A stretch of 64,000 nucleotides of DNA. Origin: Zygnema cylindricum (taxonomy: Eukaryota; Streptophyta; Zygnematophyceae; Zygnematales; Zygnemataceae). The notes under the pieces were generated by a model. That model saw only the letters and a program-made list of their open reading frames with translations, ran no database searches and was not told the origin of the DNA. The position numbers were made by a program, and so were the translations under genes. Below, one piece after another: positions 10,731 to 45,470 of the stretch (position 1 is its first letter; every line of letters begins with the position of its first letter). The stretch spans positions 25,787-89,786 of the forward strand of contig JBBHKE010002188.1 of the NCBI GenBank assembly GCA_037447655.1, in the 5' to 3' direction.

Positions 10731-12330
10731 ATGCCTAGAACTCGCGGAATAGAGTGGGAGCATGTTAAGGCTCCAGACGGAGGGCTACTTGGAAACAACC
10801 GAATATGTATCTGTATCTACTACAACTTTGAATACAATGGTCAAGCAACAAGGATTAGAAACCACCTTCTTGGGAATGTGAAGAGTGGAGGAATTAGAGC
10901 TTGCCATTTATGTCCGGACGAGGTGAAAGAGGAGTTTACTGCATCGGAAACTGAGAGAACTTCTCATGGCTCTCAGAAACGTGTCATATCTGTTTTGGAT
11001 GATCTCACCAAGTGTCTTGGTGGATCTAGCCAACCAATAAGGTGCAATGTGTTCAAACAAAAATAACAAAATTATTTCATAGGCATAACAAGAAAGAGGT
11101 AGATGTAGCATGGGCTAAGGCTTTCTTTGCCAACAACTTGCCGTTCCAACTATTAGATGACCCCTATTTTAAGGCAGCAGTGAAGAAGACCGGGGAGATA
11201 GGGGGTTCTTACAAGTTACCTCACCGGAATGCCATGAGAACTCGTCTCTTGGCAGAGACAAAGGCAACAGTAAAACAAGACTAGGGGAGCTACATGGAGA
11301 CGTTAGAAGCCACTGGTGCCTCGATCACATCAGATGGATGGACAGCAATTGATGACACGCCTCTCATTAACATTCTAGCTGTCACCCCCAAGGGTGACAT
11401 GTTTCTCACGGCGGAAGACACTAGTGGGCAAATTAAGGATGCTCATTACGTTTGTAATGTGTTAGAGAAGGGAGTTCTTGCGGTAGGGGTCGAGAATGTG
11501 GTGCAAGTTGTGACAGATTCTGCCCCTGTGAACAAGGCTGCAGCCTCGCTGCAAGTGAGTAAATACCCTACCCTTCGATCACCTGGACGCCATGCGCTGC
11601 CCACGTTTTGGACTTATTGTTGGAGGATTGGGGCAAGTTACCATTTATTTCAACACCTGTCCGAGAGGGAAAAGAGGTGCTTAAATTTATTACCAATCAT
11701 AACATGAGCTCTGCCATGTTCAACAAAATCTTAGCACTTCGGCTATTGAAACCTGGAGAGACGAGGTTTGCGACAAATTTCATCATGCTCCAAAGATTTT
11801 TACAAGTGAATGACAGCTTGGAGTGCTTAATGTTTGATGATAGTTACAAGCAGTGGATGGGTAAGGCTGCATACAAGATCGAGGGGCTAAAGATTAAAGG
11901 TCACATTTTGAGCCCAACGTTTTGGAAGAGAGTGACGAAGGTTGTGGCAGTTTCAGAGCCGGTGGTGTCGCTAATGAGGGAGTGTGACAAAGGGGCCCCG
12001 AACGTGGGAAAGGTTTATTATAGTTTTTATACCGTTGGTCAGTTTTTGCAGAAGTCATCCATTTATGGAGGTGAAAGAAATTATGAAGCCGTACTGGTAT
12101 TGGAAGAACTGAAGACATCGTTCATGAGCAGATGGGAGATGGCCCAAAGTCCTATACATGCCGCCGGCTTTGTACTAGATCCCGAGTACCAAAGTGCTAC
12201 CTATGGGCAGAATAAAAATGCAATAATAATGGAAGGCTTTGAAACAATGCTTGAAAAAATGTTACCAAACGTGGAGGAGCAGACAGAGGCTATCAAGCTC
12301 ATGTGCTTTTCAGGCATACCTATATATCAC
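10731..12330 (+). pseudogene. hAT-family transposase, broken (copy 1)
   Basis: Would cut and paste a hAT transposon in the nucleus. A degenerate BED zinc finger opens it (W-E-H-V near the start, HLLGNVKSGG, then CHLCPDEV). The first Cys pair seems damaged, with CIYY where CxxC is expected. Next come a DUF659-type block (TSDGWTA, PLINILAVTPKG, near 11330-11520) and a central hAT region (LLEDWGKL, KPGETRF, LDPEY, up to about 12330). Lesions: a stop at about 11282 before GSYMETLEATG and a frameshift between 11550 and 11600. The C-terminal dimerisation domain is missing; beyond about 12330 the sequence no longer resembles hAT, shortly before LTR sequence begins. The phase changes at 11042 could alternatively be an intron. 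Confidence 0.8.
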
Positions 12331-12499
12331 CAAGGATTTCCGGGCCTTTTTTACCCTGTACGGTCGTCAGAGTACGGAGGAGTGAGTGCACCAAGCCGGA
12401 GGAGATCCTTGTATTTCCTAAACCGAGCGGAACGCACTTTATTTGGCGCCAAACGGAGGCCGGATGACAAAGTTCTACCGTCTCAAAGATTGTAATTCC

Positions 12500-13490
12500 G
12501 TTATAGGGAACCATTTGCCACCAGCCCCCGTGGGGGGTTACATTGTGGATTGCCACGTAACTTTCCGGATTGGCATTTAGATTATGCTGGTAGCCGTCAG
12601 TAGAAATTTAGTTCAGCCCCATCTAACTTTTTGTCCATTAATTACGTTAGGTCAAAGTCTGGGAAGTTAGTGTCATTTTCAGGATTTTGTCTTATAATTG
12701 TGGACCGAATAAGTACTTCCGGCCGCAGATCTAGCTGCAGTCCGGAGCAGAACTTTTTGCCCCGAGCGTAGTACGGATTAATTTGTCTTTTGTCCGTTCA
12801 ATTACACTTGCTGGCCGCTCATTGGTGAATAGCGTAGCTTGACTTTTGAACTTGCAATTTGACAAACTTTGAGGTATAAGGCACTTGAGGTCGAAAGAGA
12901 CAAGTTGCTTTTCAGTACTGTCTCCTGCGAAAACCCTCAGAAATTCCAACAAACCTTCTTTTGGAGAATCTTTGTGTTATTTTTGACTTTATTGCCATCT
13001 TAGTTCGTGGATCTGTCTTGTGTGGAAATCAGAGTCCGGGCGGGTAGTTGGCACTATCTTCCTTTTTGGGTGATTTTGGGACTTTTTGCTGTTTGGAACC
13101 GGGAAGAGTCTTTTCGGTTTCGAGCAGCGGACATTGAAAGTTGCAGGAGTACCATACTTTTAACGAAACTCTCCAAGAGGGTTCTCCTTTCTCTAATTGT
13201 CATCGTTGATTGTTGGGGTATGTTAAGCTTGCTTCGCTACATTTCACATTTTCTATCTTTTATTCTCTTTCTGGGGCAGGGTAATATTGTTAAATCTGGA
13301 AAGCCAATCCTATATATTTATATATATATCTACGTGATAGTGCATTTGTGTCTTCATCTAGAGTTTTCTTTGCTTTGGAGTTACGGTTCCGGAGTAAACT
13401 GAAACCCCCTGGATTAGGACAATGGGTTTTGAGGGAACAAATGCTATAGACTTCCCGTAGACAACGCACAGTACTGAAAAGCCACCCTGT
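12500..13490 (+). repeat. Gypsy LTR copy in plus orientation
   Basis: This segment is the reverse complement of the LTR region at 24170-25240 along most of its length. Shared landmarks in the same order are GTATAAGGCACTTG, CAGTACTGTCTCCTG, GTAGTTGGCACTATC and a TTCTATCTTT block. It therefore belongs to a second element of the same family in the opposite orientation to the gypsy coding frames. The ends are approximate. A conserved TATAAGG (12875-12881) is a candidate promoter core. Confidence 0.75.
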
Positions 13491-14615
13491 CTTCTCGGAG
13501 TAGAGGGGATAGGAGCTTTCACTTTGGAAGTCCTCTTTTTGAAAGTGAGCTTTAGTTTCATTCACCACTTTTTCCCTCGACACCTCTTTCATCATTGGGG
13601 GAGGAGAGACTCCGGATAACGGGTCCTGAGAGCAAGGTCGACCGGATAAGCCCATGCCGGAAGGGAAATCTCTGAGGTCTAAAGAATCGGAGCCCATGGA
13701 GACTGTTTTTAAATCCCCAGCCAAGGAAACAGCTAGTGCTTCTCCTCTGTTAAAGGAACAATAGCGCACCACTGCACGCCACAATGCACAGCGAAAAACA
13801 CCAAGGATCTTCTCGTAGCAACAGTAGGAGTACACGCCACTGACAAACAAAGTTGCGTTTTATTACTTGAAAGAGAGTACAAGGTTGCGCTCGCTGCGTA
13901 GGTCTATTCAAAGAGTCTCCTATTCACTAAGCCTACCTGACTATTTAAACTAGCTAGCTGCTAGTCAACCTAGTACTGTACAACTGTACACGTGGACCTT
14001 CACGGTAAGCCGAGACAAATCCCCAAAATATCTTCTAGAACAATACCGTTCTATCTACATTCCGCGGCGTTGCCATACTGCTAAGCTGCGTTGCTCTGCT
14101 GCACTGCTATGCTGCTGCGCCACTAAGTGGCTATGTTGCTAAGCTGCTATATTGCTATGTTGGGCTGGTGCGGAATCGCAGCTACGCTGCTCTGACATCG
14201 GAACCATAGCAGCCTAGTTGCTAACTACTAAGTACCCAACTCCATAACCCTGTTAGAGTGCCTCCCACTAGGGGTTCAACATCCCGCTGAACCTTCTGTC
14301 TCAGGAAAACTGCAACTGCCGGAGTATACTGTACTTCTCTTCGCGGTACTCCTCGAATTCCTGTCGCAGGGTGTTGAGTTGGTTTTTGAGCTGCTCACAT
14401 CGGGTCTCCAGCAACGCAATATGATGGACTGCCGCTGCCAAACGTCTCCGAATGTTTCGCTCTCGCACTTGGTCCTTCCCCTCTTCCGGTACAGCCTCGG
14501 GACCCTCGGGTTGCGGCGGAATGGCCGACGGTGCAGGCTCCTCAGGTGCCAGAATTTGTGGTGATTCGGGTTCTACAAGTTGTTGTGCCTCTTCCGCCTC
14601 CTCTTCAGCCGGTTC
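13491..14615. other. Retroelement-derived DNA, class not resolved
   Basis: On the minus strand a candidate LTR-like start (TGTTGAACCCC) lies near 14275 and an AATAAA lies near 13860. At about 14070-14170 there is an imperfect repeat of short TGCTA/GCTGC words. A minus-strand frame at 13290-13850 has no recognisable domain. I could not fix element boundaries. Confidence 0.4.
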
Positions 14616-15098
14616 TCACCTAGGTACCTTCCTTAGCTTCAAGGACGCATGTTTCCTAGCAGCTCGGGCCCGCTGCAGAGCGTTCTTTCTGGCCAGCTTG
14701 AGTGCCCGTACTTCAAGGGTGACCTCTGCCCGAGCAATGATGTCATAGAGTCGAACATACCACCGATGATAACGGCGGAGTAACTCGGGAACATCCACCC
14801 TGTACTTGTAGTTATCCTCAACTACTTCCACCAACTGTAGGGCATGGGGGTTTAGCTGCACATAACCCTTGTGGTTGTTCCTGAGGTCCTTTGTTCTCAT
14901 AAAATTCCAGGCCAGGTGTGACGGTACGGTGGCGGGGATAAAGATAGGATCCCCAGGTTTTCCCGTACGCCACTCCTCGGGCAACTCTTTGGGATCCCAA
15001 TACAAGCGCTTCGCGAAGCTGAAGGCGAGATCCGGATGCTGTGTGTCGGCACGAAGTGGAAAGAGGTAATCAGGAATTTCCTCTCTCTGTTCACTCAC
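14616..15098 (-). CDS. Unidentified 160-codon frame within retroelement DNA
   Basis: Complete open frame, ATG at 15098, not recognised. The first half is neutral and contains short motifs such as LPEEW and HLAWNFM. The second half is highly basic (RALKLARKNALQRARAARK) and probably helical, suggesting nucleic-acid binding. It lies between two same-orientation copies of a 265-275-bp LTR segment (13192-13456 and 15204-15478) and is antisense to them. It could be the remnant of a gag-like or accessory antisense gene of an LTR element. No signal peptide or membrane segment is seen. Confidence 0.35.
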   Translation of the reverse strand: MSEQREEIPDYLFPLRADTQHPDLAFSFAKRLYWDPKELPEEWRTGKPGDPIFIPATVPSHLAWNFMRTKDLRNNHKGYVQLNPHALQLVEVVEDNYKYRVDVPELLRRYHRWYVRLYDIIARAEVTLEVRALKLARKNALQRARAARKHASLKLRKVPR

Positions 15099-15203
15099 CT
15101 CGGCCGTCTCCCTTTGGCTTTCTCAAAGGAGAAACACCTCGTCTCCACTAGGGTGTTGTGCTTCCGCATTTTTTTCCGATACTTTGACGATACTCTCGAA
15201 GGT

Positions 15204-15478
15204 TTCTCCTTTCTCTAATTGTCATCGTTGATTGTTGGGGTATGTTAAGCTTGCTTCGCTACATTTCACATTTTCTATCTTTTATTCTCTTTCTGGGGCA
15301 AGGTGATATTGTTAAATCTGGAAAGCCAATCCTATATATTTATATATATATCTACATGATAGTGCATTTGTGTCTTCATCTAGAGTTCTCTTTGTTTTGG
15401 AGTTACGGTTCCGAAGTAAACTAAAACCCCCTGGATCAGTTGACTAGGTTTTAAGGGAACAAATGCTATAGACTTCCC
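15204..15478 (+). repeat. Partial gypsy LTR copy, direct repeat of 13192-13456
   Basis: Nearly identical to 13192-13456, including TTCTCCTTTCTCTAATTG at the start and ATGCTATAGACTTCCC at the end. The two copies bracket a 1.75-kb block that contains the unidentified antisense frame. The high identity points to a recent event. Confidence 0.85.
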
Positions 15479-15502: not shown

Positions 15503-15539
15503 CCCCCCCCCCCCCCCCCCCACGGGTGGGGGGGGGGGG
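15503..15539. other. Poly-C / poly-G hairpin at an element junction
   Basis: A run of 19 C is followed by ACGGGT and then a run of about 13 G, forming a near-perfect hairpin. It lies exactly where a plus-oriented LTR fragment meets the truncated minus-strand integrase. It may be a real inversion scar or a sequencing/assembly artefact. Confidence 0.8.
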
Positions 15540-16255
15540 CTTCAAATTGAGACAACACTCTCTGCAAGAATGCGTCCGCGATTGCTTTGGACTCCTTTCG
15601 GGGAAGAACCACCAATTCAATCCACTTAGAGAAGTGTTCAATCATGACCAGAACAAAACGATTCCCCCTCCGGCTAGTAGGAAGTGGTCCTAGCAGATCC
15701 AGTGACCATCTGTAATACATCCCCCGGATGGGGAGGGAGTGAAGCTCAGTCTCACCCTTTTTGTCAAAAGTTGCTTTTACCCGGTCACAAGAAGGGCATG
15801 TCTGCACCACAGGATTGACCTGGGCCCGCAACCCATGCCACCAATACAACCGTGTGACTAGCGAGGTGGTTCGTTTCTATCCGAAGTGCCCGCACTGCTG
15901 GTGAAGCCGAACAATGAGTGTTTCTCGATCTGCCGGAGGGGGAACCACTTTCCTCGTCCCATGGCCCATTTTCGGAGAAGGATGCCTCGGTCCCTTTCGT
16001 AAGCCGCCATTCGGTTCTGAACACGGGACAGTTGACTTCCGGCAAGGTAGGATAGAGGAGAGCCCTTCTGGATAGATTGGAGGGAATCGCTGTCATTCCA
16101 TATATCATTTCGGCCGGCTCCAATAGGGGCCTGCCCCTCTACATCTGCAGCAAAAGTTGGCAGTCCTCCTTCGGCCCGAGGCAGCCAAATAAAAGCAGAG
16201 GAAGCCTGGATAAGTCCCACGCTGAGCTCAGGGTCTTCGTCATGTCGTGCCCCAG
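15540..16255 (-). pseudogene. Ty3/gypsy integrase, truncated
   Basis: Would join the cDNA to host DNA. The His-rich part of an HHCC zinc-binding domain is visible across frames (RLHQQCGH near 15890-15920), followed by YWWHGLRAQV and the Cys pair CPSCDRVKA (about 15780-15850). The first catalytic Asp follows in WSLDLLGPLP. The core continues through EHFSKWIELVVLPRKE and stops at QFEA, where the poly-C/poly-G junction begins, so the second Asp and the Glu of the DDE triad are absent. Frameshifts separate the pieces upstream of 15850. Confidence 0.8.
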
Positions 16256-16276
16256 TAGAGTCTGTGGTGGAAGGGT

Positions 16277-16402
16277 CCTCTCCAATTTCTCAGTGACTGC
16301 GACAAGTTTGAGAGTTGGAGAGAGAAGTTAGAGATAGACTGCCTCGACTTCTATATTTCTTTTCAGACCTAGAAAATACTAATAAAACCATTAATTTCTA
16401 CA
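16277..16402 (-). repeat. Copia LTR end inserted in the gypsy RNase H
   Basis: About 126 bp, closely matching the 5' end of the copia A LTR (27261-27387), starting with TGTAGAAATTAATGG on the minus strand. It interrupts RNase H immediately after the TDHQPLKWIMEN motif. No target duplication is evident. Confidence 0.75.
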
Positions 16403-19400
16403 CTTACTGTTCTCCATGATCCATTTGAGGGGCTGGTGATCCGTAATAAGGGTGAAGTGTACTCCATAGAGGTAAGGCCGGAAGTGCTGGATGGCCCAAA
16501 CAGCGGCGAGTAATTCCCCATGGTAACTGCTGTAATTCCCCTCGGCTCTGTTATTACTCCGGCTTGCGTAGGCCACTACATACTCTGCCCCTGCGTCGTC
16601 CAATTGAGCCAAAACCGCTCCCAATCCGAACCTGCTCCAATCTTTATAAATGAGAAAAGGCCGCTGGTGATCGGGCATCCGGAGCACAGGATGCTGTTTG
16701 AGGGAATCCTTCAGGAATTGTAACGCTATCTGCAGTTCTTCCTTCCACTGCCACTCATGGTCCTTTCGCAACAATTGGTTCAATGGCTGAGCGTGGCTAC
16801 TGAATTCAAGAATAAACCGCCGGTAATAGTTGGTAAGGCCTAGGAAAGTACGAAAAGCAAAAATGTCCTGCGGGGGTGGAACAGCATCTAGAGCTGCCAC
16901 CTTAACCATGTGGGGACCCACTGTCCCGGGGGTCTCCTCGTGACCCAGATAAATAATTTTCTGCACCCCAAATATGCCCTTCCCCGGTTGACACTTCAAG
17001 CCCGCTGTTTAGAGTGCCCGGAGAACGATCTGTATATGCTCCAAGTGTTCTTCAAATGTCTTGGAGAAAATGATAACATCGTCGATATAACACCGTGCGA
17101 AATCAATTCCTCGGAGAGCCTCGTCCACGGCCCGTTGGAATTTGGCAGGTGCATTCTTGAGGCCAAATGGCATGTACAGCCATTCATATAGCCTGGATCC
17201 AGCCCAAAAAGCAGTCCTCTCTCCGTATTTAGGCTCCATTGCATTCTGGTGGAATCCATTTTTCATATCCAAAGTGGAGTAAATGGTGGCCCCAGCAAGA
17301 GAGTCGAATATCTCTTCCGGGGTAAGCATAGGATAACGGTCGGAGACAGTTGCCGCATTAAGCATCCGATAGTCCCCACACATCCGGAAATCTACAGTTT
17401 TTCCGGAGGAGTCTTTCTTTGGCGGGAGCACGGTTGGTGAGGCGAACCCATGTAGTTCTGTACTCCCCTGAACCAGCCCAGCTTCCACCAAAGTCTGCAC
17501 CTTTGAAGTGATGAACTCTTTCTCCTTGAAACTGAGAGGGTACTGTTTCTGCCAAACAGTAGCCGTGTCGTCGATCAAGTCAATCCGAAAAGGAGTCCCT
17601 TTATAGATCCCTACATCGGTGTCAGACCAGGCGAACACCTGCCAGTTCTCTTCTAACAGCTAGGAGAGCCGGGCCTTATGCTGTTGGTCTAGCTGTTCAC
17701 CTATAGTCCAGTCCATCTTCCCGGGTTCCACTGCCGCGAATGCTTTCGGTGGTCTACCCAAGAGAGAGATGTTGAAGGTCAGCTCTACCTGTGGGTCGGT
17801 CCCTTGTTCGGCTGTTAAAACGCTCCTGCTGACAACTTCCTCTAAGCTGTCCTGTTCTGAGACTCTGTTCCCCCCCACTAAGGAAACTCCAAGGTCCAGT
17901 GTGCCATTGCTCCTGAATTTTTCCCTCCTTGTCTCTCTCCCCCCCTCGAGCTTTAGAGTTAATTGCATGGCCAACAATTTTGGAGCTTGAAGGTATGTTG
18001 TCCGTGATTTTGGAGACTGAAGGCTTGAGAATGCAAGAAAATGTTTCAGCACCCAGGAAATTGCATTTAAATCCATGCTTTGTCCGATTAAACTGCACCT
18101 TTTTGAGGCTGATACCCCTGGCGCAGCTGTGGTTCCCTGTTGAAACCCCATTGCTATTTCCCGTTCTGTAATATTCGTCGCTGTCCATGTGGCGGTTGTA
18201 TTGTCAAAGATCATTCCTGGTGCACCCTTCCGGTAAGCGTGGCTGTTAGGAAAAGATACCACAGTTGGTAGGGCCTTCCGTGGATATCCAGGCTTATTAC
18301 AACAGAAGAAGGGTGTTTTGTCGACTGTGATCACCGGTGTGGCTATTCGCCCCGGTCCAAGGATTTGTTGGACCGTGATGTTAAGATCCGCAACCTGTGT
18401 TCTGAACAGCTGTTGGAGGATTGGAAGGGGAACCAAGTTGGTCCAATATGCCCGAACTCTGTGGGCTCTCGATCCGATCTGAGCTGCATCAAAAACTATG
18501 GGAGTCCCTAGAACCTTGGTCACTTAGTTCCAACTGTTGACCACATGTTTTCTCTTATCATCTGTGGGGTGAACGTTCTCCAGGACGTACCCCAATGGTG
18601 TGTCCTGGCGTTCCTGTAACCCTGTTATTAGTCTGGTCATTTGAAAGAAAGTTTTGCTACGGACGTCCTGGTGTCCCTGGCCCTGTCCTGCTAACGAATA
18701 CCCTGGCATGGCCATCCAGCGACCACCAGGTCTACCCTTCCGAGCTTTTCCAAATGGGAATCCGTGATATTGTCCACATTCAAGGGAAGCGTGTGGTGAG
18801 AGTTGATCATGGCGGACACCGGGAGTTGTTGTGGGTAAAGTTGGAGCAGCTGTTGCAGGCGTTACTCACTGACTGCACGGGCGTCCGGGTCAATCTCTAC
18901 TGCCGAGTAAGTTTCTATTTGGTATCCAGCTTTCAGGACGGCTTCCAGATCGGAACTAATGCTAGAAAATAGGGATAGAATTCTAAGTCCTGAAAGCATG
19001 ATTTGTAGTGACACCAGTTGTCGATTAAAGTCTTTCCCTTTGTTAGGAACCGTTGGAAGTTCCGACCAGGGGACTTTTACTGCTCCGGGTTTTATTGCAG
19101 CCAAGCTCCTGTCCACTTCCCGACGAAGTGTGGCCATCTGTACCAATCGGTTCTGATACTCCTTTCCCCACCGCTTGGAAATAGAGAATTGCTAGATAGA
19201 ATCAGCGATATCGTTAGAGTATTTGAACAGCTGCAAGGGGGTTGAGGCAGAGAAGACGGGATAGCATCCAGACAGCGGAACACTCGTTTTTCCCCGGTTC
19301 CACAAATCCAAGGGGACCACCACTTTTGTTCCTTCCGGATCCTCAAGGTCTGAGAATGTAACTTGTTCCTTCCATACGCTCAACTCCATGTTCAACCTTG

Positions 19401-22074
19401 TCCACGTAGCCATACCCAGCAAAATTTCAAATTGCTTACCTTCCACCACTAGGAAGGGAAGCCGAATCTGCACGTGCTGGCCTGCGTCGTCAGCAAATTC
19501 GATTTCCATAGCTTTTATGATCCCATATACTGGTTAGGTGCCACTGTTGACGGTGCTCAAGCATATGTCACTTGGACTGATCTTTGGCCGGAGTTCCTCG
19601 GGCATTTGTTGTAACGCTGATGTAGTTATTAAGTTTGGAAGAGCTCCGGTATCCACCACTGCATCGTGGTACCCGCCGTATCCATTAAGTTTAAAATTTC
19701 CCGTCCTGTTGAGAATAAGAGCCACCGAAAGGGCTTTATAATCCCTATCTGCCATAGAGGTTTTTGGTTCTGCCGACATGAAGACTGTCTTGGGCGGTTC
19801 TGCCAACGCAACCCTTTTCCTCCTAGTGTGAATTTCTTCCCCTAATGCATGAATGAGGGTTTCTTCGGGCAGATTGTGGGAGGAAGCCAGCGTTTTGACA
19901 TGCGTCAAGGCGTAGGGCATTAAGTGTCATACTAGCATAACTGCCGGTTTGGAGGAAGGAGGGAGAGCTTTGGGCGATGAAATGGGTGAAACCTCGTCTT
20001 TTGATTTCTCGTGTTCCCCCCTCCCTGCTTTCTCACTCTCTGCATCAGAATTCCCCGTAGGAGGTGTAACTAGCGGATCTGTGGACGGTCTCTCAGCCAT
20101 GTATTTGTCGAACCACTCCTGATCTGTTTCAGTGGTTGAAGTTTTCATGTAATCTTCTAAACCGGGAGGAAGTTTCTTCGGAGCCGGAGGAGGCGGGTCA
20201 GTCGGCTTGAGTCCTAGTCCAATGTTACTGTTCAGAAGGATTGGTCGCGGGGTAAAGGATAAGAGACCTGTGGCTTTCCGACTGTGGTCCTTTTGTTCCA
20301 TCGGTTGTTTATCTTTTCTTTGGGAGGACGTTGTAGAGCGCAGTTGCCTAGGACTGTCCCCTACACCAACGTTCCATGCTCCGGACAGAAATGTTCAAGC
20401 ATGATGAACCTTTGGAGGCTCCATATCCCAACCCATCAGGTCATCATCATCTCCACCCACCGTGGTCTGCTGCTCCAGTTCTGCTAGCTTTTATAGCAGT
20501 TCTTGTTTTTGTTTCTGCAGTTTCTGTGCCGGCGTAAGAGGTTGGGGAGTGCGGGCAGAGGATCTCAGTCGGAGAGCGGCAAGTTCTGTTGCCAAAGCGG
20601 CCAACTGAGTGCTCTGTTGCTGAATGATATGTTCCGGTGTCAGTCTGCTGGGACCCGGTTCATTTGGAGATCGTCCCCAGGGATACAAAAGTTGCAGTGG
20701 CAGAGGATTAACTGCAGTTTCCCATTCGCCAGTAAAGAATGCATACTGCATCATCTCCTTCGGAACCCCATTTTTCCGAAAGCATTGCCCTTCTTCGTGG
20801 CCCATGAACCCACAAGCTTCACATTTTGACCCTTCAGTAGTGTACTTCCCCCTTAGCTCATTAGAGATTTGAGCGTCATCGAATTTCGGAAGTCGGATTT
20901 GTCTCAACTGGGATTGAGACATTTTGGCGGTTTCAGAACGTGGAGTAGGTTTATAGGTTTCCTTAGTGACCGGGGTTCGGTCTCCTCCTCCGCCTCCTTG
21001 CTTGCGTTCTTGCTGTTTCTTTGTTCTTTCCGCACGCTCCCTTTCAAACTCCTTCAGCTTGATGGCGAGTTCTGGTTTGAGCTTTCGGGGGCACCTCTTC
21101 CATCCGTGACCGGGCTGGTTACAGTTCAGGCAGTCGTAAAGAAAAACTTTTTCATCTCCTCTCATTGCAGGTTCTGGTCGGGCATCCGCTTCCTATTTCC
21201 CCTTAAGCTTCCGCAAAGCTTGCAGTTCTGTCTGTTCGTCGTGGCTGAGCGATGTTTCCCCGGCGAAACCTGCAAAGTTGGCTCTGGATTTCCCGGTAAC
21301 AGCCTTTTCTCGTGCCTCGCTTTTAACAAAATGATCATACAATTTCATAGCAGCCAATGAAATTTCTTGAGCTGTGGGATTTCGATTGTGTATAGCCTGA
21401 CTGGCACTCCAATTGTCCAAAGCTGCCTGTCCCGTTGGCCCGAAGGAATTTCGAACAGCGACATAATATTTGGTGGCCATAGCTGGTGTATCGATGGTGG
21501 ACAGTTTGGTCTTCTAGCAGAGGCTGGAGAGGCGGTTGAACAGCGTTTGGGGAGTTTCATTCTTCAAACAGCGGAAGTCTGTGAACTCCTTGATGGCAGT
21601 TTCGTTCCTTTCTGTGTAAAGGAGTCTCCAAGCGTCCAGAAGAGTGGTACAGGGATTAGGATTGGCAACCATCCGGGTGGCCGCTTCGGCTCCCCGTACA
21701 GCCTGGAGGTGGTTGACATAGGCCCTGCCTTGGGCCTGAAGTTTCATATCCATGGTGAAAGTGGGGGTGAGAGGGGCTGCGGCTGCGGCGGCCAGGTCGG
21801 CTGCTGCCTGAAGAGCCTCGGCGTCCAGATCCGGATCCGATATTTTGATACTGGGGGGCATCAACAAAGGTTGACGCTCCTTGTAATCGGCCAAAGCTCC
21901 TCCGGCTAGATAATTTACCATCATCGGAAACAGGGTTGTTTCAAAATCTGCTGGAATGGCCCCTCCCCTGTATTTGTTGATTTCAGATTGGGTGAACAAC
22001 TTCCACAGCAGTTCGAAATCAGAGAAAGCGATTCCCGAGCTATTCTTGTAAAGATCCTTACGTCCCCCATTCAT
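16403..22074 (-). pseudogene. Gypsy gag-protease-DNA methyltransferase-RT-RNase H polyprotein, decayed
   Basis: From 22074 the frame stays the same through gag and protease into the methyltransferase. After one single-base deletion near 18700 it resumes through RT and RNase H. Gag: capsid-like region (LLDAWRLLYTERNE, 21514-22074), zinc knuckle 1 (C-LNC-NQPGH-C, 21093-21137) and zinc knuckle 2 (CEACGFMGHEEGQC, 20781-20825). Protease: DTGALPN (DTGA at 19642-19653) and a later ILLGMATW. Methyltransferase: 18030-19005. RT: FRMCGDYRMLN, MPFGLKNAPAKFQ and YIDD at 17078-17089. RNase H: AYASRSNNRAEGNYS and TDHQPLKWIM. In-frame stops lie near 21512, 21193, 20491, 20402, 19927, 19534, 19192, 18862, 18524, 17660 and 17009. 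All are codons that one C-to-T step makes from Gln or Arg. Confidence 0.9.
18030..19005 (-). pseudogene. C5 cytosine DNA methyltransferase domain inside the gypsy pol
   Basis: Would methylate cytosine C5 in DNA using S-adenosylmethionine. Motifs appear in canonical order: motif I (LRILSLFSSISSDLE, 18945-18987, with Ser where the usual Gly residues sit), motif II (AVEIDPDA), motif IV with catalytic Cys (GWPCQG; PCQG codons at 18700-18711), motif VI (ENV, 18572-18580), motif VIII (QIGSRAHRVRAYW, about 18440-18490), a short target-recognition region, motif IX (EREIAMGF, about 18138-18178) and motif X (LIGQSMDLNAISWVL, about 18040-18106). At about 325 residues it is a catalytic domain only. It sits between protease and RT in the same frame. 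Two in-frame TAA codons (18862, 18524) and a one-base deletion right after PCQG inactivate this copy. It looks closer to DNMT3/retroelement methyltransferases than to DNMT1 or CMT, but I cannot place it without a tree. Confidence 0.88.
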
Positions 22075-22244
22075 TTTTCCTCCTCTGCAAGGTTGGTGAA
22101 CTGTAAAGAGGATGGTCCGGTTGGGCTAACAAACTAAACCGGTGAAATTACCCCTGGATCTGCGTCGTTTGGCTCGGGCGCGCCTCCTTCTCCGGTAGAG
22201 GGAGCGGTCTGACGAGAGATGGCACTCCCCCCCACTGAGAAAGT

Positions 22245-24143
22245 TTAGGTTACCAGTGGGATAGTGAGATGACCAGTATCTCCCTGGAGTTGACCCTTGG
22301 GAAACGAAGAGCTTATCACCTTAGGAAAAGCTGCCCGAAGTTCTGCTCCCCTATACCCAAGAGAGGCCCGTTCCTCCCAGTGAAGTGTTTCCACCGAGGG
22401 AATGTGGAGAATAGGTTTAGGCACCGATGGTACTTCAGGGATTGGTGGAGAAGGGGATGGAAATGACCGAGGACTACGAGGGAAAGGTGTCTGTCTCCGT
22501 GTACGCCTTTTGGAGGTTTTTGGTGGAGGAGTTCCTTCGCTGGAACCGGGAGAACGTCGGTAAGGAGGAGAGTTGGCAGGAACGTCGTACTTGTAGGGTA
22601 AGACGGGTGGTCCCGGTGACCCACGGACTGCAGCGGCAGGAGAAACAGAAGGCGAAGGAGAGGATGCCTGAGGTGGCGATGGAGGAGGAGTAGTAAGTCC
22701 CAGGGAAATGTGTAGTCTTTGGTCTGGTTGTAGCTGTACCACGGCCTCCACAGTAGAAGATCCCTTGACCGAGACAATGGTAGAGAGATCTGTAGCCGCG
22801 GTTACCGGATTACTCAGCAAATCTGCAACCAACCCCTTTTTGTTAGATCTTGTTGTTCCCCCCCCTTCCCGCTGAAGAGGGGACTCCGGTCTATGTTCCG
22901 AAGAAGTCTTGGGAGATGGAGTCCCAGTAGGGGCAGTCTGCTCGGTAGATTGTCTCTCAGCAGAGGGCCCTGTCTCTCTAGGAACAGATCCTGGTCCACT
23001 AAGGATTCCCCCTGATTTCCGTCTCGCCTCCCTAATTAGGAACATTTCTTGTTCTAGAGCCCTCTTCCGTTCTTCTTCTAGGGCCTCCCAATCTATGGTG
23101 ACGGGTCCAGCCCCCGCCGTAGCCTTACTCTGGGATCGGAGGATCTCCACCAGTTTTTGCGTGATGCTTACCACCCCCGAGAGATCCACAATCCCCAAAC
23201 CGGGTACCTCGGGGTCCGTAGGCCTCGAACGCCATAGTCCTTCGGATGGTCCGACATTTGGTGCGGAAGGAGACATAGAACTTGGGAAAATTGAGACAGA
23301 AGGAAAGAACGGCTCTTCTTTGACTAGGGGAGCAAATCGACCTTTGCTGTCCCGATGGTTGAACCAGAAATCTCTCTTGGGCTCATGTAACTTCCACTTG
23401 CTACTCCCTTCCTTGGTCCGGCCCCGAGAAGTTGCTCTGCCCCTAGAAGGTCTACTGGTGGCAGTTTTCTGAGATATGGTGGGCTGCGGGTAGTAAGTTG
23501 ATGGTCCTCCCAGTTGCTCCGGTGCTGAGGTTGGGGAGCCGCTCTCCGACGAACTACTCAGTAACTCGACTACACCTCCCACTGGGCGTACCACCTTGGC
23601 TCAGTCTGACCTGGCCACTCGCTGCACCAACTCTTTCTTAACCTTAAACTCATGGAGATTATGAAGGGCTAAGATTTCCTTGCGACCTGGCTGGTGAGGG
23701 TCAGACAGAATCTCTAGATCTATGTATATCTCTGTTATTGGTGCCTTGGACCTGGTAAAGCGACCAATTTCGGGAAGGGGACCAGGGATCGCTTCCTTGT
23801 GTGCCAACCCCTTTCTACGACTTTTAGGAGAAAGGGGCGGCCTCTCCGCCCTCTCCGCTGCCCGAGCCCGGGCTGACTCGAACATAGTTGGAAAGTTCTC
23901 GGGGGAAAAGACAGGTGGAGGTGGAGGAGAGGGTCGCCTCTCTGGCTGCGTTGGAGGAGTTTCGACTGCAACCTCCGGAGGCGTCTCTCCCCTAAGAAAC
24001 CACTCTACGTGTAAAGGGGAGCCAAAGGGGGGTACTTCCTCAGGCATCGGAGACTCTTCCTCTTGGGCCACCACTTCTTGTCTTTCCTGTTCTTCTGGAC
24101 TAACACTTGAAGGATCCCTATCCGAAGCGTCACCTCCGCCCAT
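22245..24143 (-). pseudogene. Gypsy upstream ORF, Pro/Ser-rich, one in-frame TGA
   Basis: Starts with MGGGDAS 30-40 bp after the LTR region. The frame is open for 632 codons apart from one TGA at 23601-23603 (flanked by RVARSD and AKVVRP). It is rich in Pro, Ser, Glu and Arg and looks disordered. One ordered-looking patch, ITEIYIDLEILSD, precedes the TGA. No zinc knuckle or enzyme motif is seen; those are in the next frame. It may be a Gag N-terminal extension or a separate accessory protein; the function is unknown. Confidence 0.6.
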
Positions 24144-24169
24144 GACTTACACGAGCAGATGAGCTAGAT

Positions 24170-25240
24170 CTCTCGGATAAAATACACCACCCTAAGCAGC
24201 TATCCTCTTAAACAAAAGGGGACAGTGGCTTTTTCAGTACTGTGGTACTCCGCAGGAAGCCCACAAAATGCCACACTCCCATCTACTCTCCAAAGAATAG
24301 GAAGGAAATGAGAGTCGTCCGATCCATTCCGTAAAACTCCGGACAAACCCAAAGATGACCACAAGAGTGTGCAAATAACTCCCACGCAAAAATATAGAAA
24401 TAACAAATATCGGCTTTTCAGATTAAACAATATCACCTTGCCCCAGAGAATGGAATTAAAGATAGAAATGAATGATAATGGTGAAGCGAATTCACATACC
24501 CCGGAGTGCAACGATGACCAAACTCAGCAGAAGAAAACCTCACCCAATGGCCCCGAAGTCAGGTATGAGTCTCCCTCAACCCTCCCGGTTCCACCGCAAG
24601 GATCCGACAAGACTCTTTTTAGTTTCAAACAGCGAAAGTCTAAACCGCCCAAAGAGGAGATAGTGCCAACTACCCACCTGTGCTACGGTCTCCACAAAAG
24701 ACAATCCAAAACAAAGATGGCAATAGAGTCAACTACACAATGCAACCGTTCTCCAACAGAAAGATTGATTTAATTCTCTGGGGGTTTTCTCAGGAGACAG
24801 TACTGAAAAAGCAGCCTGTCTCCTTCGGCCCCAAGTGCCTTATACAACCAGAGTTTGTCCTACTGCAAGTTCGAAAGTCAAAGCAATGTGACAAGCCAAT
24901 CAGTGGCCAGCAATTAGTATCGTACTGACATAAGACAAAACACACTTTACTACACTCAAGGCTAAAAATTAGACAACTGGTCCCGGCTGGATTAGAGGCC
25001 GAGGGTCCTTCTATCACACACAAAATGAAACAAAGTTCTGACTCGACATGAAACTGCCTAACTTTGTCCCAACGTCATAAATGCTTTGCCCGGTGGTTGG
25101 GCCTGAACTAACATCATACTGACAGCTAACAGTAAGATCTACGGGATAATCCCAAATGTTACGTGTCGTTGTCTAAGGTATCCCTCTACTAGAGCTACAT
25201 AGAACACACACTAAAATGGATCAGACACTTTGCACCGGAC
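24170..25240 (-). repeat. Gypsy 5' LTR / leader
   Basis: Defined by similarity to the inverted copy at 12500-13490. It ends just before the upstream ORF. Exact termini and primer-binding site could not be fixed, so part of the inner end may be leader rather than LTR. Confidence 0.7.
24838..24844 (-). promoter_or_regulatory. Candidate TATA box of the gypsy LTR
   Basis: TATAAGG in the context GTATAAGGCACTTG, conserved in the inverted LTR copy at 12875-12881. Conservation in otherwise diverged LTR copies supports a promoter role; transcription is not shown. Confidence 0.45.
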
Positions 25241-25269
25241 TAACTCCTCAGTTCGACCTCCGTTTAAGG

Positions 25270-26345
25270 TGAACTAAATTGCGTAGTGTTCCAGGATGAA
25301 AATAGAAAGATCTGATCCGGCTGATTGTCCTCTTCCTTCTCCCTAAGCTAGAGTCCGTACAAAGTGGAATGAAGCCCCAGAACTCCAAGGAGTGCAAATG
25401 TGCCGAAGATGCACACGCGCTTGACATAGTGCCCAGGTTTCTTACAAAAATGACATAAACCTTTGGGAGCGCTTGGTCCGAACTCGTCAGTCTGATTTTT
25501 CTGCTCCCTCCCCCCATAGTTTCCGACCAGTTTCCGAGAATATTTGTTCCTCCAATCGGTCGCAGTTGCTAAGGCTTGGCCACTCTTTCCTCCCCTTCGG
25601 ATCTGAATCCTATTCTCCCGAACGAGAATCATCCCTAACAGTGAGTTCCATATCCACCTTAAGTCTGGGAAGTCCAGCACACGGTTGACTATGTTTTCGA
25701 ACTCATCGGGTAACTTCATCAGTAAACAGTTAACCTTTTCCTTTTCAGTAAAATCTTTTCCCGCACTCTCTAGCTCCATGAACAGTGTAACAAGCTCATT
25801 GCAAAAATCCATTATCTTCCCCCCTCTGTATACATACTCCTTAACTTTCTGATCAGCCAACTGCTGTTGGTGAATCGTACCACTTCGGTACATCTCTATG
25901 AGAGCCATCCAAAGATCGGATGCCCTTTCTACCTACAAATGAGGACATGCAAGTCCTTGAGTGAGATGGCGTAGGATGAAGTGCTTTGCCGCCATATTGT
26001 TGAAGTCCCAGGTTTCACTATCATTCTCCTCGTTCCTCGGAATAGGTGACATGAATGCCGAACCAGTTGCTATTGGTGTGGTCGCCTCCTTCTCCTTTCC
26101 TTTGTCCACCACCTCTCCTTCTTTTGTTTCCTCCGTTGAAGGTGGATCTTGTTTCTTGGTGAATCTGCTTCCTCCAAACCCTGGAGGAATTCCTAGACTT
26201 GATGGACGCCCCGACCGTCCACTCACTATCCCCCAAAACCTTTTTTCGCATAGAGCTCTTATCATCATACTTTCCCATTATATGAAGCCAGTTCTATTAA
26301 AGATTGGTACCCTAGAGGGTGGGCCCATAACCTGAAACTCTAAGA
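25270..26345 (-). pseudogene. Copia element A gag, truncated
   Basis: Ty1/copia Gag that would package element RNA. It starts after its LTR with QVMGPPSRVP, then CEKRFWGIVSG, HFILRHLTQGL, KVKEYVYRGGKIMDFCNEL, LLMKLPDEFENI and a zinc knuckle (CHFCKKPGHYVK, then a Cys). It is interrupted by stops near 26285 and 25930. Similarity fades by about 25270, where gypsy LTR sequence begins, so no pol remains. It is paralogous to the gag at 28820-29903. Confidence 0.82.
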
Positions 26346-27387
26346 CCTCCATAAGTCCTCAGAGTGGACAACTTCCAAGAAGCCTCTAGGATAGCCCTGA
26401 CCCCTTGGTGTTTTAGCAAAAAGAACTGCCACCGTGGCAGACAATAACTCTGACCAACTTCACCTTTGTGAAGGCAAGACTCCCCTGATTCGATAGCAAA
26501 AAAAATCTCTGAATTTGCTCCTCTGAGCAGTAAGTTATGGAGGGTCAAAGTTGACCTTTTGTATAGAAGCTCTCTAGGAGAGAGGGTCCTATCTCCTAAT
26601 TTTTCTAAGTCATATCTCTCTCACAGACATTATCTACTAATGTACGGAGCCAATCAGAATATAGTTGCGTACACAAAAGTACAGGTGTCGGTGTACTTTC
26701 TGTACGAACACTGTACGACATGGCCTTAATGTCGACACGTGGTATGTTCGGATTCGCTCCCTTAATCCTCGGAGATGTCGCGATCCAATGTCATTTCGCC
26801 ACGTGTCATCCGATGTTGCGATGACCATAAACCGCCGAAATCCTCTTCTGCGATCTCGGCGTTAATTCCGGCTGTCCGATTAAATTCACATTTAATCGTA
26901 GCCGTAATAACTACATGCGCGGTATTCGTTTCATTAGAGAAATAAATGCGCGGTATTCGTTTCTTATCCCTACCGTAATCCGTACTTTTACAATACTAGA
27001 TCTATGTATCTCGTAAACAGTTATAGTTAAATGAATTATCCTATTTGATAATGTTTAATTAATTATCAAACCATATAGTACGTAACACTAGTTCTAGACT
27101 TAACGGCTAAGGCTACCGTCTACCGGCTGTCTGTCGACCGGTAGGTACCAGGATCAAATCCTGTGACCAGCATATACCTTTTAGTAAATAAACCCCAAAC
27201 TAATATATATTTCTCGTAAACCTCTGGATACCCTAGGTAGCCATGGCTCTAGCTCCCTCTCCAATTTCTCAGTGACTGCGACAAGTTTGAGAGTTGGAGA
27301 GACAAGTTAGAGGTAGACTGCCTCGGCTTCTTTCTATATTTTTATTTAGACCTAGAAAATACTTAAAATGGACCATCAATTTCTACA
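26346..27387 (-). repeat. Copia element A 5' LTR
   Basis: Begins with TGTAGAAATTGATGG at 27387 (minus strand) exactly where copia B integrase coding stops, so A inserted into B. A tRNA T-arm-like block lies at 27148-27163. The inner end is approximate. Confidence 0.75.
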
Positions 27388-28440
27388 CCCTGAATCTGCA
27401 ATCACGGTATCACTCATATCTTTTTCGGGAAAAACAGAGTTCTCCTCACTCTCGGACTCAAACGTGATTCTTATCTTCTTAGTATATTTAAAGGGGTTTA
27501 TTGACTTTCCTTCATCCATGACAACTAGGTGTTTTACCAGAATGATATCTTGCTTTGCCAAGTCATAAACTCTATATCCCTTAACATCCTCATCATATCC
27601 CAAAATATATCCAGGTTTTCCCTTAGCATCAAGTTTCGAGTTTTTCTTATCCGTATCTAAACTGTAAACTTGACTACCAAAAACTTTAAGGTGAGAGATA
27701 TCTGGTTTTCTTCCAACCCATCTCTCATAAGGTGTCATACCTTTGATTGCTGATGTGAGGACTCTATTTTTAATGTAATTGGCACAGTTCATGGCTTCTG
27801 CCCAAAATCTCTTTCTTATTTTCTTGTCAGCCAACATACTGCATACACTACCTACTAGTGTTCGGTTTAGCCTTTCTGCAACACCATTTTGTTCCGGATT
27901 ATGTGGTATAGTTTTCTGGTGTTGAACTCCCTCATCTCTTAAGTATTCCTCAAATTGGTTAGAGGTATACTCTCCCCCATTATCACTCCTTATTCTCTTA
28001 ATGGGGGTTCTATGCAACTTCTCACTCCAAGCTTTGTATTATTTGAAGTAAGTTGGTGTTTCTGACTTTGTTTTTAGAAAATAAACTCTAGAGTATTTAG
28101 ACCAATCATCAGTGATTGTCAACATATATCTTTTCCCTCCAACTGAGGGTACCATTGCTGGTCCCCAGATATCTGTGTGGATCAAATCTAGTACTTTTCC
28201 CCCCCTATATGTGGCGGCTTTGGGAAAAGGAAGTCAGTGAGTTTTTCCTTGGGCACAACCACTACAAATATCCACCATTTCATTATCACTGAAATGAATG
28301 CCTTCTACCACACCCAGCTTCTTCATCTCCCTCAACCTATCAAAATGCACATGCCCCAACCGCTTATGCCAAATCATCAATATTGGGCCACCAACATTGT
28401 AAGCATTCTTCTTTTCATTACTCATGTTAAGCCTAAACAT
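27388..28440 (-). pseudogene. Copia B GAG-preintegrase and integrase, truncated
   Basis: GAG-preintegrase motif WHKRLGHVHFDRL and CSGCAQGKTH (28234-28440), then the integrase core: first Asp in HTDIWGPAMVP (about 28170), second in IRSDNGGEYTS and Glu in NPEQNGVAERLNRT (27376-28017), giving all three DDE residues. The integrase C-terminal region follows (KPDISHLKVFG, KPGYILGYDEDVKGYRVYD). A frame change near 28020-28230 and the LTR A insertion at 27388 destroy it. It would integrate copia cDNA. Confidence 0.87.
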
Positions 28441-28538
28441 TCCTTAGCTACCCTTATCTGCAGTGAAGTAAACTTCATCCCTATACTTGGCTGTAAAAAC
28501 TCCCTTTCTAGTGAAAGTATCAAACTCTTTGTCATCTA

Positions 28539-29903
28539 TCACAGATGTAGAACAAGATTTTTACTCAGCTGGGGAATATAAAGCACATCTGAGAAAGTGA
28601 GAATAGAAGTCTTACCCCCCACTAAAACTTTCAGGTCAGTTGATCCCACTAGATCTGTAGTAACAACTCTCCCATCCCCATACTCTATTTCTACAGTAGG
28701 GATTTTCCTTAACTTAGTGAAAAGGTCCTTGTCACGACACATATGCATGGATGCACCTGAGTCGATGATCCATCCTTCCTGTGGAGCTTCCCGACTGCTC
28801 CAAGGGCACACTTTTGTCTCCGAGGGATCTCTTTCTCCTCCAGACTCTCGTCAAGAAGAAGCTCCCCATCCTCCTTAGAGGACTCGTCCTCGGTGTCTCC
28901 TATCACCTTTGTGAACAAAAGTGCCTTTTTCTTCCCTCCAGAAGAACCCCCTCTTTGGTTCTCTTTGAGCCTCAGCTCCGCCAGCTTGGCACAATCCGCA
29001 ATAAAGTGCCCTGGCTTTTTGCAAAAATGACATAGGCCCTTTGGGGGCCTCGGTCCTCTAGGTTGGACTCTTTCTCCTTTGTATGGTTTTTTCGGTTCCG
29101 GTCTCCACCTGTCCCCTCCGGCGGCTAGAGCTTGAACGCTCTTTCCACCTCCCTTGATCTCCATGGTATTTTCCTGCACAAGTATCATCCTGACCACTGT
29201 ATTCCACTTCCATGAACTATCAGTCATTTCTTGTACTCGGTACACTAAGTTCTCATACTCGTCTGGTAACTTCATGATGAGAGTGTTTACTTTCATTTTC
29301 ATTGTGCCTGTCCAACCAGCACTTTCCATCTCCATATACAAACAAGAAAGATCATTGCAATAATCTAACATCTTTCCTCCTTTCTACGTGTAACTCACTA
29401 GCTTTTGCTCAGCCAACTAGAGTTCTTGAATGGTACCAGCTCTATAGATCTCCACCAAACTCCCACAACTCCTCGGCCTTGTAAATATTAAGGTGAGAGG
29501 TGGCCAATGCTTCAGTGAGATGCCTTAGAATGAAGTTCTTGGCAGCCATGTTTATGTCTTCCCACATTTGAACATCGTTCTCCACTGTCTTCACGACCGC
29601 CGCTCTTGGTGCCATGGCAATAGGGGTGAGGGGTGTCTCCTTCCCTTTCCCCTTTTGAGACACACTACTGTCCCCATCATCTGCCTCCTCCGCGGAAGCA
29701 GTCGCTGTTGCAGAAAACCTTACTCCTCCAAATCCTAGCGGAGTTCCCGAAGGTGGACGTTTCACTTGTCCACTGACGATACCCCAGTATCGTTTTTCAC
29801 ACAAGGCTCCCATCATCATGGCTTCCCAATAGATGAACCCAGATCCATTGAAAGTGGGCACCCTAGAGGGTGGGCCCATAACCTGCAATTCTGTGTCCTC
29901 CAT
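28539..29903 (-). pseudogene. Copia B gag and protease, frameshifted
   Basis: Gag starts MEDTELQVMGPPS (ATG at 29903), with CEKRYWGIVSG, HFILRHL-type helices, LIMKLPDEYENLVYRV and a zinc knuckle CHFCKKPGHFIADC. Breaks lie near 29440 and 29371. Protease follows in another frame with GWIIDSGASMHMC (Asp of DSGAS is catalytic) and FSDVLYIPQLSKNL. A frameshift near 28800 separates gag from protease. These are classic Ty1/copia features. Confidence 0.87.
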
Positions 29904-29929
29904 TGGACTACAGAAATAGAGGAAGCCTC

Positions 29930-30912
29930 TAGATAATTGTTAACTAGCCCACTTTAACCCACAGCCACTGCTGCCCAAAAAGTCACACTGACAATTTGAC
30001 TGCACCCCTGTGCAGCCTAGACTCCACTGAGTCCGTAGCAAAAAGAATCTCTGAAAACGCCCAACCAGGTGATAAGTTATGAGGCAGTAAAAATGTCAAT
30101 TTGTACAAACTCTCAAAGGGAGAGGTGACTGCCTACCAAAATTTTCTAAGTCCTGATTTACTCTAATAACTTCTATCTACTGAAGTACGGACCAATCAGA
30201 TTACTGTACCGTACCAAAAAGTACTACTGCCGGTGTACCTTTTGTACGGCCTATGTACGACAAGACTATTAAGCGGACGCGTGTCTCCTTTTCACTCGTC
30301 CGTACATTCCTCGGAATTCCTATGACCGAATGTCATCTCTCCACGTGGCCCAAGGTCATGCCACGTCACTAAACGCCAAAGTAACTACTCCGGGATTTCA
30401 GCGATGATGTGCGCCGTTGGATTTGCAACGAGACGAAATCTTGGCCGTAATAAATACTTGCGCGATATTTGTTTCGTTGTCGAAACAAAATGCGTGGTAT
30501 CCGTTTTGAATTGGTACATTCATAAAACTGTATCCATGTACGCCGAACACAGTTTTCGTTAAATAGATTTGCTCCTTCCTAAATATATATATATATATCT
30601 ATCACATACTATAGCATTTAGCATTGGTCCTACTCTAGTAGGATAAAGCTGACCACTATCGGCCAGCTTGACGAACCGCAGGTACCAGGATCAAATCCCG
30701 GGTCCGTCAGGTATATTTTTAGTAGCCTTAAAAATATCTCCCTGTTGAACTAAGGCAGCCATGGATCAACCACTCTCTCTATCCTTCAGTGACTACAACA
30801 AGTATGGGAGCTAGAGAGAGGAGGTGTAGGCAGGCTGTCTGTCCTTTTCCTTTTTCTTTTATACTAACATTTTAAACCTATAAAATACTCTAGAAATCTA
30901 TTAATTTCAACA
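29930..30912 (-). repeat. Copia element B 5' LTR
   Basis: Nearly identical over its inner two thirds to the LTR fragment at 63210-63870. It contains a short TA run at about 30577-30600 and the T-arm-like block at 30685-30700. The inner border with the gag leader is approximate. Confidence 0.78.
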
Positions 30913-44579: not shown

Positions 44580-45470
44580 ACTTGGGCCAGATCTGTAAAG
44601 CATCATGAAGGAATTGGGTCACGAAAGTATCCGAACCAAGGGGGCAACCAAGCACCCGAATGCCATCGGAGGGAGAAGGGGTTTGAAAACCAAGAGGGGG
44701 AGTAAACGAAAGTGGAATATCCTAAGGAGACCAAATAACACACTTTGACGGTTGGACTGAAAGGTTGAGTTCGGCTAACGTTCCTTGAAAAAATCATAAG
44801 CCAACACGACTTGTTCTCTGGGCCCAATAATGTGCGTATCATCTGCGACCGAAGGGAATGTGGCTGCGAAGGCGCGAAGGGCCCGGTAATGGGCGAGGGC
44901 GAACAAAGGTCCGCCGAGAAGGTCGCCTTAGCGAGTGCCAGTAGCAGAGGAGAGAGGAATGAGATCACCATCGGCCGGGAAGGAAAGGCTGCTTGTCAAA
45001 GAATAGAAAGCCCTCACAAAGGGGGATAATTGGACAATCGGAGATGGAGCCGCCATAAGCTCTGAAATAATCACGTTCCGATCCACCGTATTAAAGGCAT
45101 TGGAAACGTCGACCTGAAGGACCAACCAATCCGGATGTACATCCAACAAAGCCCGAATCCCATGGACCACGGCCTCACAACCCCCTTTCGTGGCCACTCC
45201 AAACTGATGAGGAGAAAAATAATCATTGAAAGCTGATTGGAGCTGGAGACATATCGCACGAGCCACCAATCTATATAAAACCTCTCCCACGGCGATAGGG
45301 CGGATCCCACCATTAGGTTTGGCGACTGCCACTAGGCGGGACACCGTGAGAAGATCACAAATCTGAGGGGGAACATCCCCACTAGCAATAATAGAACATA
45401 CTCGAAAGAACACATCAAACCCTCGGGCACCCGATTCAGGGGGCAAAACATCACGAAACAACTCATACAC
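44580..45470 (-). pseudogene. LINE reverse transcriptase, broken
   Basis: RT motifs in order: PNGGIRPIAVGEVLYRL, HQFGVATKGGCEAVVHG, motif A with Asp (LQVDVSNAFNTVDR), the region before and in motif B (TGTR, stop, GDLLGGPLFALAHYR) and motif C (PSVADDTHIIG, 44822-44850). Lesions: TAA where Gln is usual before GDLLGG (about 44931), a one-base frameshift after FFKER (about 44780) and another stop after CVIWSP (about 44723). It would copy LINE RNA at the nicked target. Confidence 0.87.

Follow-up and report, generated by a model that had tools for sequence, protein, structure and literature searches.

A Ty3/Gypsy retrotransposon group with a cytosine methyltransferase between protease and reverse transcriptase in Zygnema cylindricum

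Layout of the element and its copies in the genome

The stretch of Zygnema cylindricum DNA analysed here (64,000 nt of contig JBBHKE010002188.1; hereafter the window) harbors a decayed Ty3/Gypsy retrotransposon that carries a cytosine methyltransferase (MTase), an identity and architecture of which there is hardly any doubt. A first-pass annotation had placed such an enzyme in a Gypsy element, between protease and reverse transcriptase (RT), at 15540–25240. This proved correct in substance and nearly so in extent: the element runs on the minus strand from nt 25426 to 15536, every piece of it lies on that strand, and the 5′ to 3′ order is gag, protease, cytosine MTase, RT, RNase H and a broken integrase. 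Its parts are as follows (L and C numbers denote other copies in the genome; family B is defined below).

24246..25426, minus strand: repeat A1, the 5′ terminal repeat, beginning TGTCAAGCGCG; 93.7% identical to repeat A of copy C1374 and 93.2% to its A2
22245..24146, minus strand: N-terminal coding region preceding gag, open in two stretches with a stop between them, collinear with L025
20491..22125, minus strand: gag-like region with a CCHC knuckle at its end, seen by eye in the window and by motif in relatives
19195..19926, minus strand: aspartic protease with a DTGA motif and one internal stop (PF13650, 0.19 in the window)
19192..19194, minus strand: in-frame TAG followed by CAATTC at the protease/MTase border, a candidate readthrough stop conserved in family B
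18031..18990, minus strand: Dnmt3-type cytosine-5 MTase domain, broken; class assigned via relatives
17009..17659, minus strand: reverse transcriptase of Ty3/Gypsy type (PF00078, 1.7e-21)
16391..17008, minus strand: RNase H (PF17919, 2.5e-31; PF17917, 1.5e-29)
15536..16278, minus strand: N-terminal part of integrase, truncated (H2C2, 7.3e-8; start of rve, 3.4e-5, the latter under the cut-off)

The window copy is dead. Its MTase motifs are found between nt 18990, where motif I lies, and nt 18031, with PCQG at 18711–18700 and ENV at 18580–18572, and the single-base deletion reported earlier is real, falling directly after PCQG (about nt 18700) and shifting the frame in motif IV. That this deletion was the only break in the frame did not hold, as stops occur at 18864–18862, 18526–18524 and 17662–17660, all of them sense codons in the open copy L006, and further stops lie upstream. 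The 3′ end is gone: the element breaks off at nt 15536, inside the integrase, leaving the copy without the remaining integrase, the PHD finger and the B1-A2-B2 repeats of its relatives, and about 120 bp at 16278–16402 are foreign to the element at that place. The truncation point (15504–15540) is marked by runs of C and G, and could be an assembly join.

A check against PF00145 gave E=0.0088, under the cut-off, for the motif IV–VI piece of the window and 8.2e-13 for copy L006/L025. Two neighbouring MTase pieces of the window had no Pfam match, nor did 20491–21192 of the gag-like region, and the protease remains under the cut-off even in L025 (PF13650, 2.1e-4). The identity of the window MTase is settled because it is 91–92% identical to L006/L025, a copy that is open through MTase, RT, RNase H and integrase.

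The host assembly (352.8 Mb, 2,689 contigs) contains at least 123 PF00145 matches above the cut-off (123 of 782 first-look candidates scored). This is a lower bound, which does not list the window copy and includes at least one host gene (L007), and most of these matches were not read in context. The 35 places that were read comprise the 20 best-scoring matches, 20 with long open frames (6 overlapping) and the window, a choice that favours well-preserved copies. An element MTase was present in 34 of them, the remaining place, L007, being a host chromomethylase exon (1501–1749) with 4fsx, which we take to be maize ZMET2, among its best matches. Chromomethylases are described as plant-specific, with their earliest members in charophytes, in the available part of PMC6453930. 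Another locus, L075, is a host DUF3444 gene; like the chromomethylase exon, it indicates that the host is a streptophyte.

The 34 loci form two families, A (15) and B (19, window included), with about 42% identity between them in the MTase and 46% in RT. In 31 of the 34, RT follows downstream on the same strand, although the match is short in L003 (36 residues) and L018 (57). L001 and L017 showed no RT in about 1.2 kb downstream of the MTase, nor did L039 in 3.7 kb downstream of its family A MTase; L039 is a broken or rearranged copy. The order protease, RT, RNase H, integrase, with an integrase of the DDE type, is present in L021, L024 and L025, and the RT region of L025 matches Ty3 RT at 1e-53. 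In L021 a single frame of 2,395 codons without a stop spans gag, protease, MTase, RT, RNase H, integrase and a PHD finger. At L038, on the minus strand, an adjoining Gypsy element lacks the MTase, and its protease motif is followed by the RT match after about 200 codons. The enzyme had been proposed to be part of the polyprotein, and the multicopy family, with the same order and orientation, frames that are intact in some copies, and selection on the domain (below), bears this out; a profile match exists, and neither family copies free of the domain nor copies with it in another orientation or frame came to light among the loci read.

Enzyme class, selection and terminal repeats

The class of the enzyme was assessed with the domains of L006/L025, L021 and L024. 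In a comparison with solved structures, the L006 domain alone matched DNMT3A at 1.8e-14, HhaI at 5e-5 and DRM2 at 0.002, while a three-copy profile gave 66 bits for DNMT3A, 34 for HhaI, 28 for DNMT2, 25 for DRM2 and 12 for DNMT1, making DNMT3A/3B the closest solved C5 methyltransferases. Motifs I, IV, VI, VIII, IX and X follow in the normal order, not rearranged as in DRM, and judged by sequence the MTase is therefore Dnmt3-like and not DRM-like. All 34 copies keep the catalytic Cys and the LEN motif. Motif IV reads PCQG in all 19 family B copies and ECQG in all 15 of family A (L021–L023, L026–L031, L033, L036–L040), with the catalytic Cys retained; the Pro of PCQG is otherwise nearly invariant. 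A bacterial or phage origin was also considered. A viral collection yielded 26 relatives (best-segment identity 28–46%, confined to query residues 2–151 of 321), and of 72 pattern matches in a prokaryotic genome collection none proved to be a relative by tblastn. As DNMT3A/3B score well above HhaI, a phage origin is not favoured.

The MTase is under purifying selection. Pooled dN/dS values are 0.21 (A) and 0.28 (B) for the MTase, 0.19 in both families for RT, and 0.19 (A, 11 pairs) and 0.29 (B, 4 pairs) for the PHD finger, compared to 1.0–2.4 when the same MTase and RT alignments are read in wrong frames. The MTase is somewhat less constrained than RT, since its medians are higher (0.30 in A and 0.24 in B, against 0.13 and 0.18). 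The linker between MTase and RT has a pooled value of 0.76 in family B and 0.31 in family A. Two of these comparisons tell against a clean contrast: the family A linker is as constrained as the MTase itself (medians 0.27 and 0.30; RT 0.13), and the wrong frames of the family B PHD finger gave 1.49 (8 pairs) and 0.44 (3 pairs), from too few pairs to be of use.

Trees of the MTase (34 rows) and of RT (29 rows) each separate families A and B at full support, and share several subclades, among them L033+L038, L023+L029+L036 and L011+L032, with many inner forks unresolved. The MTase tree largely agrees with the RT tree, L012 excepted, and co-inheritance with RT is thus broad. L012, which is placed differently in the two trees, runs counter to it. 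This copy is mosaic-looking, its protease and MTase being about 68–73% identical to L025 (73% in the MTase) and its RT 91%, and because these identities disagree, either its parts have recombined or its MTase has evolved faster. The simplest reading is that the MTase was captured a single time, before the A/B split; the RT tree was built without MTase-free elements, and so does not prove it.

Terminal repeats were compared in four copies with both flanks fetched. In two of these (C1344 and C1374) they are arranged A-coding-B-A-B, with GC between B1 and A2, and begin with TGTC and end with GACA; the other two (C783 and C544) show A-coding-B and lack A2-B2 in the 1.9 kb past B1, a form that recombination between B1 and B2 would yield. 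Two identical flanking long terminal repeats are absent from all four, and a 4-bp target duplication, TTGG, accompanies one. Repeats A1 and A2 are 97.8% identical in C1374 and 100% identical over 931 bp in C1344, so that at least one insertion is very recent. In C1374, 3.7 kb of other sequence lies between two copies of the B1 region.

Beside the window copy, 12554–13327 and 15200–15478 hold diverged sequences resembling repeat A in opposite orientation, and 13178–13456 is 95% identical to 15200–15478 over 279 bp. Inverted repeats like those of DIRS-1 were considered for the window and rejected, the oppositely oriented sequences at 12554–13327 and 15221–15349 being diverged, separate repeat pieces. 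An unnamed ORF-bearing repeat at 13751–14970 recurs, about 80% alike, within the 3′ end of C1374 (L044). Copia-type gag regions, rve and an SH3-like integrase part occupy 25348–29939 (minus strand), adjoining and slightly overlapping the Gypsy 5′ repeat. Elsewhere in the window are a tandem array of 6.4 copies of a 70-bp unit with 99% matches (9411–9861), a DUF659-like fragment under the cut-off (11563–12495, plus strand) and an RT fragment (44928–45518, minus strand; PF00078, 7e-10).

The border stop, the PHD finger and a possible function

The protease/MTase border is held by 18 of the 19 family B loci (L010 excepted), and all 18 have a stop there, TAG in 17 and TAA in L017. The TAG is followed by CAATTC in 15 cases, by CAATTG in L032 and by TAATTC in L034. 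Between a deep clade (L003, L011, L018) and L025, the 12 bases past the stop match at 9–10 positions, while the next 48 match at 20. The TAG at 19194–19192 of the window is therefore a conserved feature of family B, and not damage. The hexamer that follows it fits CARYYA at five of six places, a named readthrough motif according to the available part of PMC3441728, and a hairpin 6 nt past the TAG scores z -3.5 in L003 and -4.0 in L018, two closely related copies of the deep clade. TAG-CAATTC is probably a readthrough signal in family B. Speaking against this, the fold past the stop is ordinary in L025 (z -1.0) and in the window (z -1.3), and family A has no conserved border stop, 4 of its 15 copies having one stop each, at differing places, in the aligned part. 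As family A has ECQG and no conserved stop, neither the Pro nor readthrough is needed by all of these elements. That the TAG is not read through, with the MTase-Pol frame started separately or the stop parting two proteins, would suit L017, which has TAA without CAATTC; it is unlikely, given that the frame is kept across the stop, that TAG-CAATTC persists where its neighbours have diverged, and that the two parts are continuous in a single frame in family A.

At the other end of the polyprotein, L021 terminates in a PHD finger (PF00628, 1.5e-9, above the cut-off). The finger was detected in 12 of the 15 family A loci, the exceptions being L026, L033 and L040. Among six family B loci searched, it was detected in three (L024, L025, L035) and not in the window copy, which is truncated, in L034 or in L002, a short locus. 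A weakness is that the family B fingers fall under the Pfam cut-off (0.0044 in L025, 0.00024 in L024), although they align with that of L021. The best solved relatives include the PHD fingers of PHF12, BAZ2B, KDM5B, WSTF and ATXR5, several of which read unmodified H3K4. That the finger aims integration is a guess. Neither it nor the conserved in-frame TAG nor the second family with ECQG had figured in the first-pass annotation, which was silent on all three.

Together these features suggest an explanation to which, as a whole, we assign a probability of roughly 0.6: a Gypsy group captured a Dnmt3 and kept it, with readthrough of the TAG, self-methylation and docking by the PHD finger. In detail, a Ty3/Gypsy group would have acquired a Dnmt3-type MTase once, before families A and B separated, and retained it since. 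Ribosomes on family B transcripts would make mostly Gag-protease and, through the leaky TAG-CAATTC, a lesser amount of MTase-RT-RNase H-integrase-PHD; coming from this shared readthrough product, the MTase would be packaged in amounts equal to those of RT and integrase. Its most likely role would then be de novo methylation of the new element DNA, or of chromatin just after integration, and the C-terminal PHD finger would dock the integrase on histone H3 tails. The specific mechanism within this scheme, self-methylation of new DNA at a dose set by readthrough, is put forward tentatively, at somewhat less than even odds. A bolder version is doubtful. Here the element would be a self-contained epigenetic retrotransposon, with Dnmt3 writer and PHD reader in one polyprotein, the dose of the family B writer tied to RT by the leaky stop, new copies methylated and steered into a particular chromatin state as they integrate, and the ECQG of family A reflecting altered control or target.

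A methylation footprint was sought in base composition. The observed/expected ratio of CpG is 0.58–0.66 in four family B stretches and 0.81–1.07 in eleven family A stretches, most of which include some flank, compared to 0.82 to the left and 1.02 to the right in the rest of the window. Between L025 and four family B copies, CG-to-T changes are 1.3–2.1 times as frequent as CH-to-T. Tempering this, CG transversions are raised as well, 1.9–2.3 times in the same comparison, and because of this there is no clear mark of deamination. The footprint is equivocal, and neither shows nor excludes heavy methylation.

This equivocal decay is one of the points against the idea that the MTase silences the element's own copies, giving lower copy number and longer persistence, rather than shielding cDNA. 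Such self-restraint was suggested by de Mendoza et al. (PMC5890265, here and below cited from the available part of its text), and a histone reader in the same polyprotein would fit action at the level of chromatin; it is nonetheless an improbable account, as the many copies (the PF00145 matches above) and the very recent insertion speak against strong restraint. Somewhat less probable again is that the MTase persists without catalysis, as a DNA-binding or structural module comparable to mammalian DNMT3L, which would aid RT or integrase with the cDNA. Selection is blind to whether catalysis or binding is maintained, and all of family A is altered at a nearly invariant Pro, but the catalytic Cys and LEN are universal and PCQG is intact throughout family B. 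Weaker still is the case for RNA as the substrate, whereby the element's genomic RNA or its primer would be protected or marked in the particle. The Dnmt2 branch of this fold methylates tRNA. For the LINE enzymes, de Mendoza et al. mention RNA methylation as a possibility, and the Klebsormidium nitens enzyme left yeast DNA unmethylated (PMC5890265); the closest relatives of the present enzyme are, however, DNMT3A/3B, with DNMT2 far behind in the profile scores (28 vs 66 bits). That a host methyltransferase pseudogene landed by accident in a single Gypsy copy, as the broken and weakly scoring window copy taken alone might have suggested, is rejected in view of the same order in 31/34 loci, purifying selection and broadly congruent trees.

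Comparison with known systems

Since transposons are commonly silenced by cytosine methylation, an element encoding its own methylating enzyme presents a paradox, and the published cases have left the role of the enzyme open. Chromoviruses are Gypsy elements with a histone-reading chromodomain at the integrase C-terminus; in the present elements a PHD finger takes that place, and an MTase is added. The genome of K. nitens, at about 104 Mb, is smaller than the 352.8 Mb assembly studied here.

It is K. nitens that provides the charophyte precedent to which the first-pass annotation correctly alluded. KnitGypsy-Dnmt3 is a Gypsy element with a non-rearranged, intronless Dnmt3 in its Pol ORF, purifying selection (Ka/Ks <0.2) and DIRS-like repeats of the form A-coding-B-A-B (PMC5890265), so that to call the arrangement in the window a distinct system was too strong. 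The window group is perhaps a close relative of it, a kinship suggested by likeness to the published description. Against an active enzyme stands the yeast assay of the K. nitens MTase, in which DNA methylation was not obtained and which its authors regard as inconclusive (PMC5890265). The present elements differ in forming two families, and in the conserved protease-TAG-MTase border, the C-terminal PHD finger and ECQG.

Other retroelements share single traits with those described here. SymbioDIRS-Dnmt3 and SymbioLINE-Dnmt of Symbiodinium also carry cytosine methyltransferases, the former has the same repeat plan, and the SymbioDIRS enzymes methylated CG in yeast; these elements differ in having a tyrosine recombinase (DIRS) or an endonuclease (LINE), and the acquisitions are considered independent (PMC5890265). 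The Zygnema elements instead have an rve integrase, and no match to a tyrosine recombinase was obtained in the pieces scanned with Pfam. DIRS elements with Dam-like methylases are likewise methylase-bearing retroelements, but their enzyme is an unrelated adenine methylase and they have a tyrosine recombinase (PMC5890265). Elements with Dnmt3, called Copia and DIRS, are reported from streptophytes and dinoflagellates in the available part of a 2025 study (PMC12344493), and PHD domains are known from CR1-like elements, according to a title cited in PMC5408684; the latter are retroelements with a PHD finger as here, but of the non-LTR type.

The principle of a Gypsy element with its own Dnmt3 has thus been published. 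In the literature covered, which was partial, nothing turned up on readthrough, a PHD finger or an additional streptophyte host for elements of this kind; neither term, PHD or readthrough, occurs in the main text of PMC5890265, and TAG-CAATTC, the PHD finger and a family-wide ECQG were not found in the part of that paper available. What Zygnema adds to KnitGypsy-Dnmt3 is two old families in one genome, in which the enzyme has been kept under selection together with a histone reader, and in family B a probable translational signal linking it to RT.

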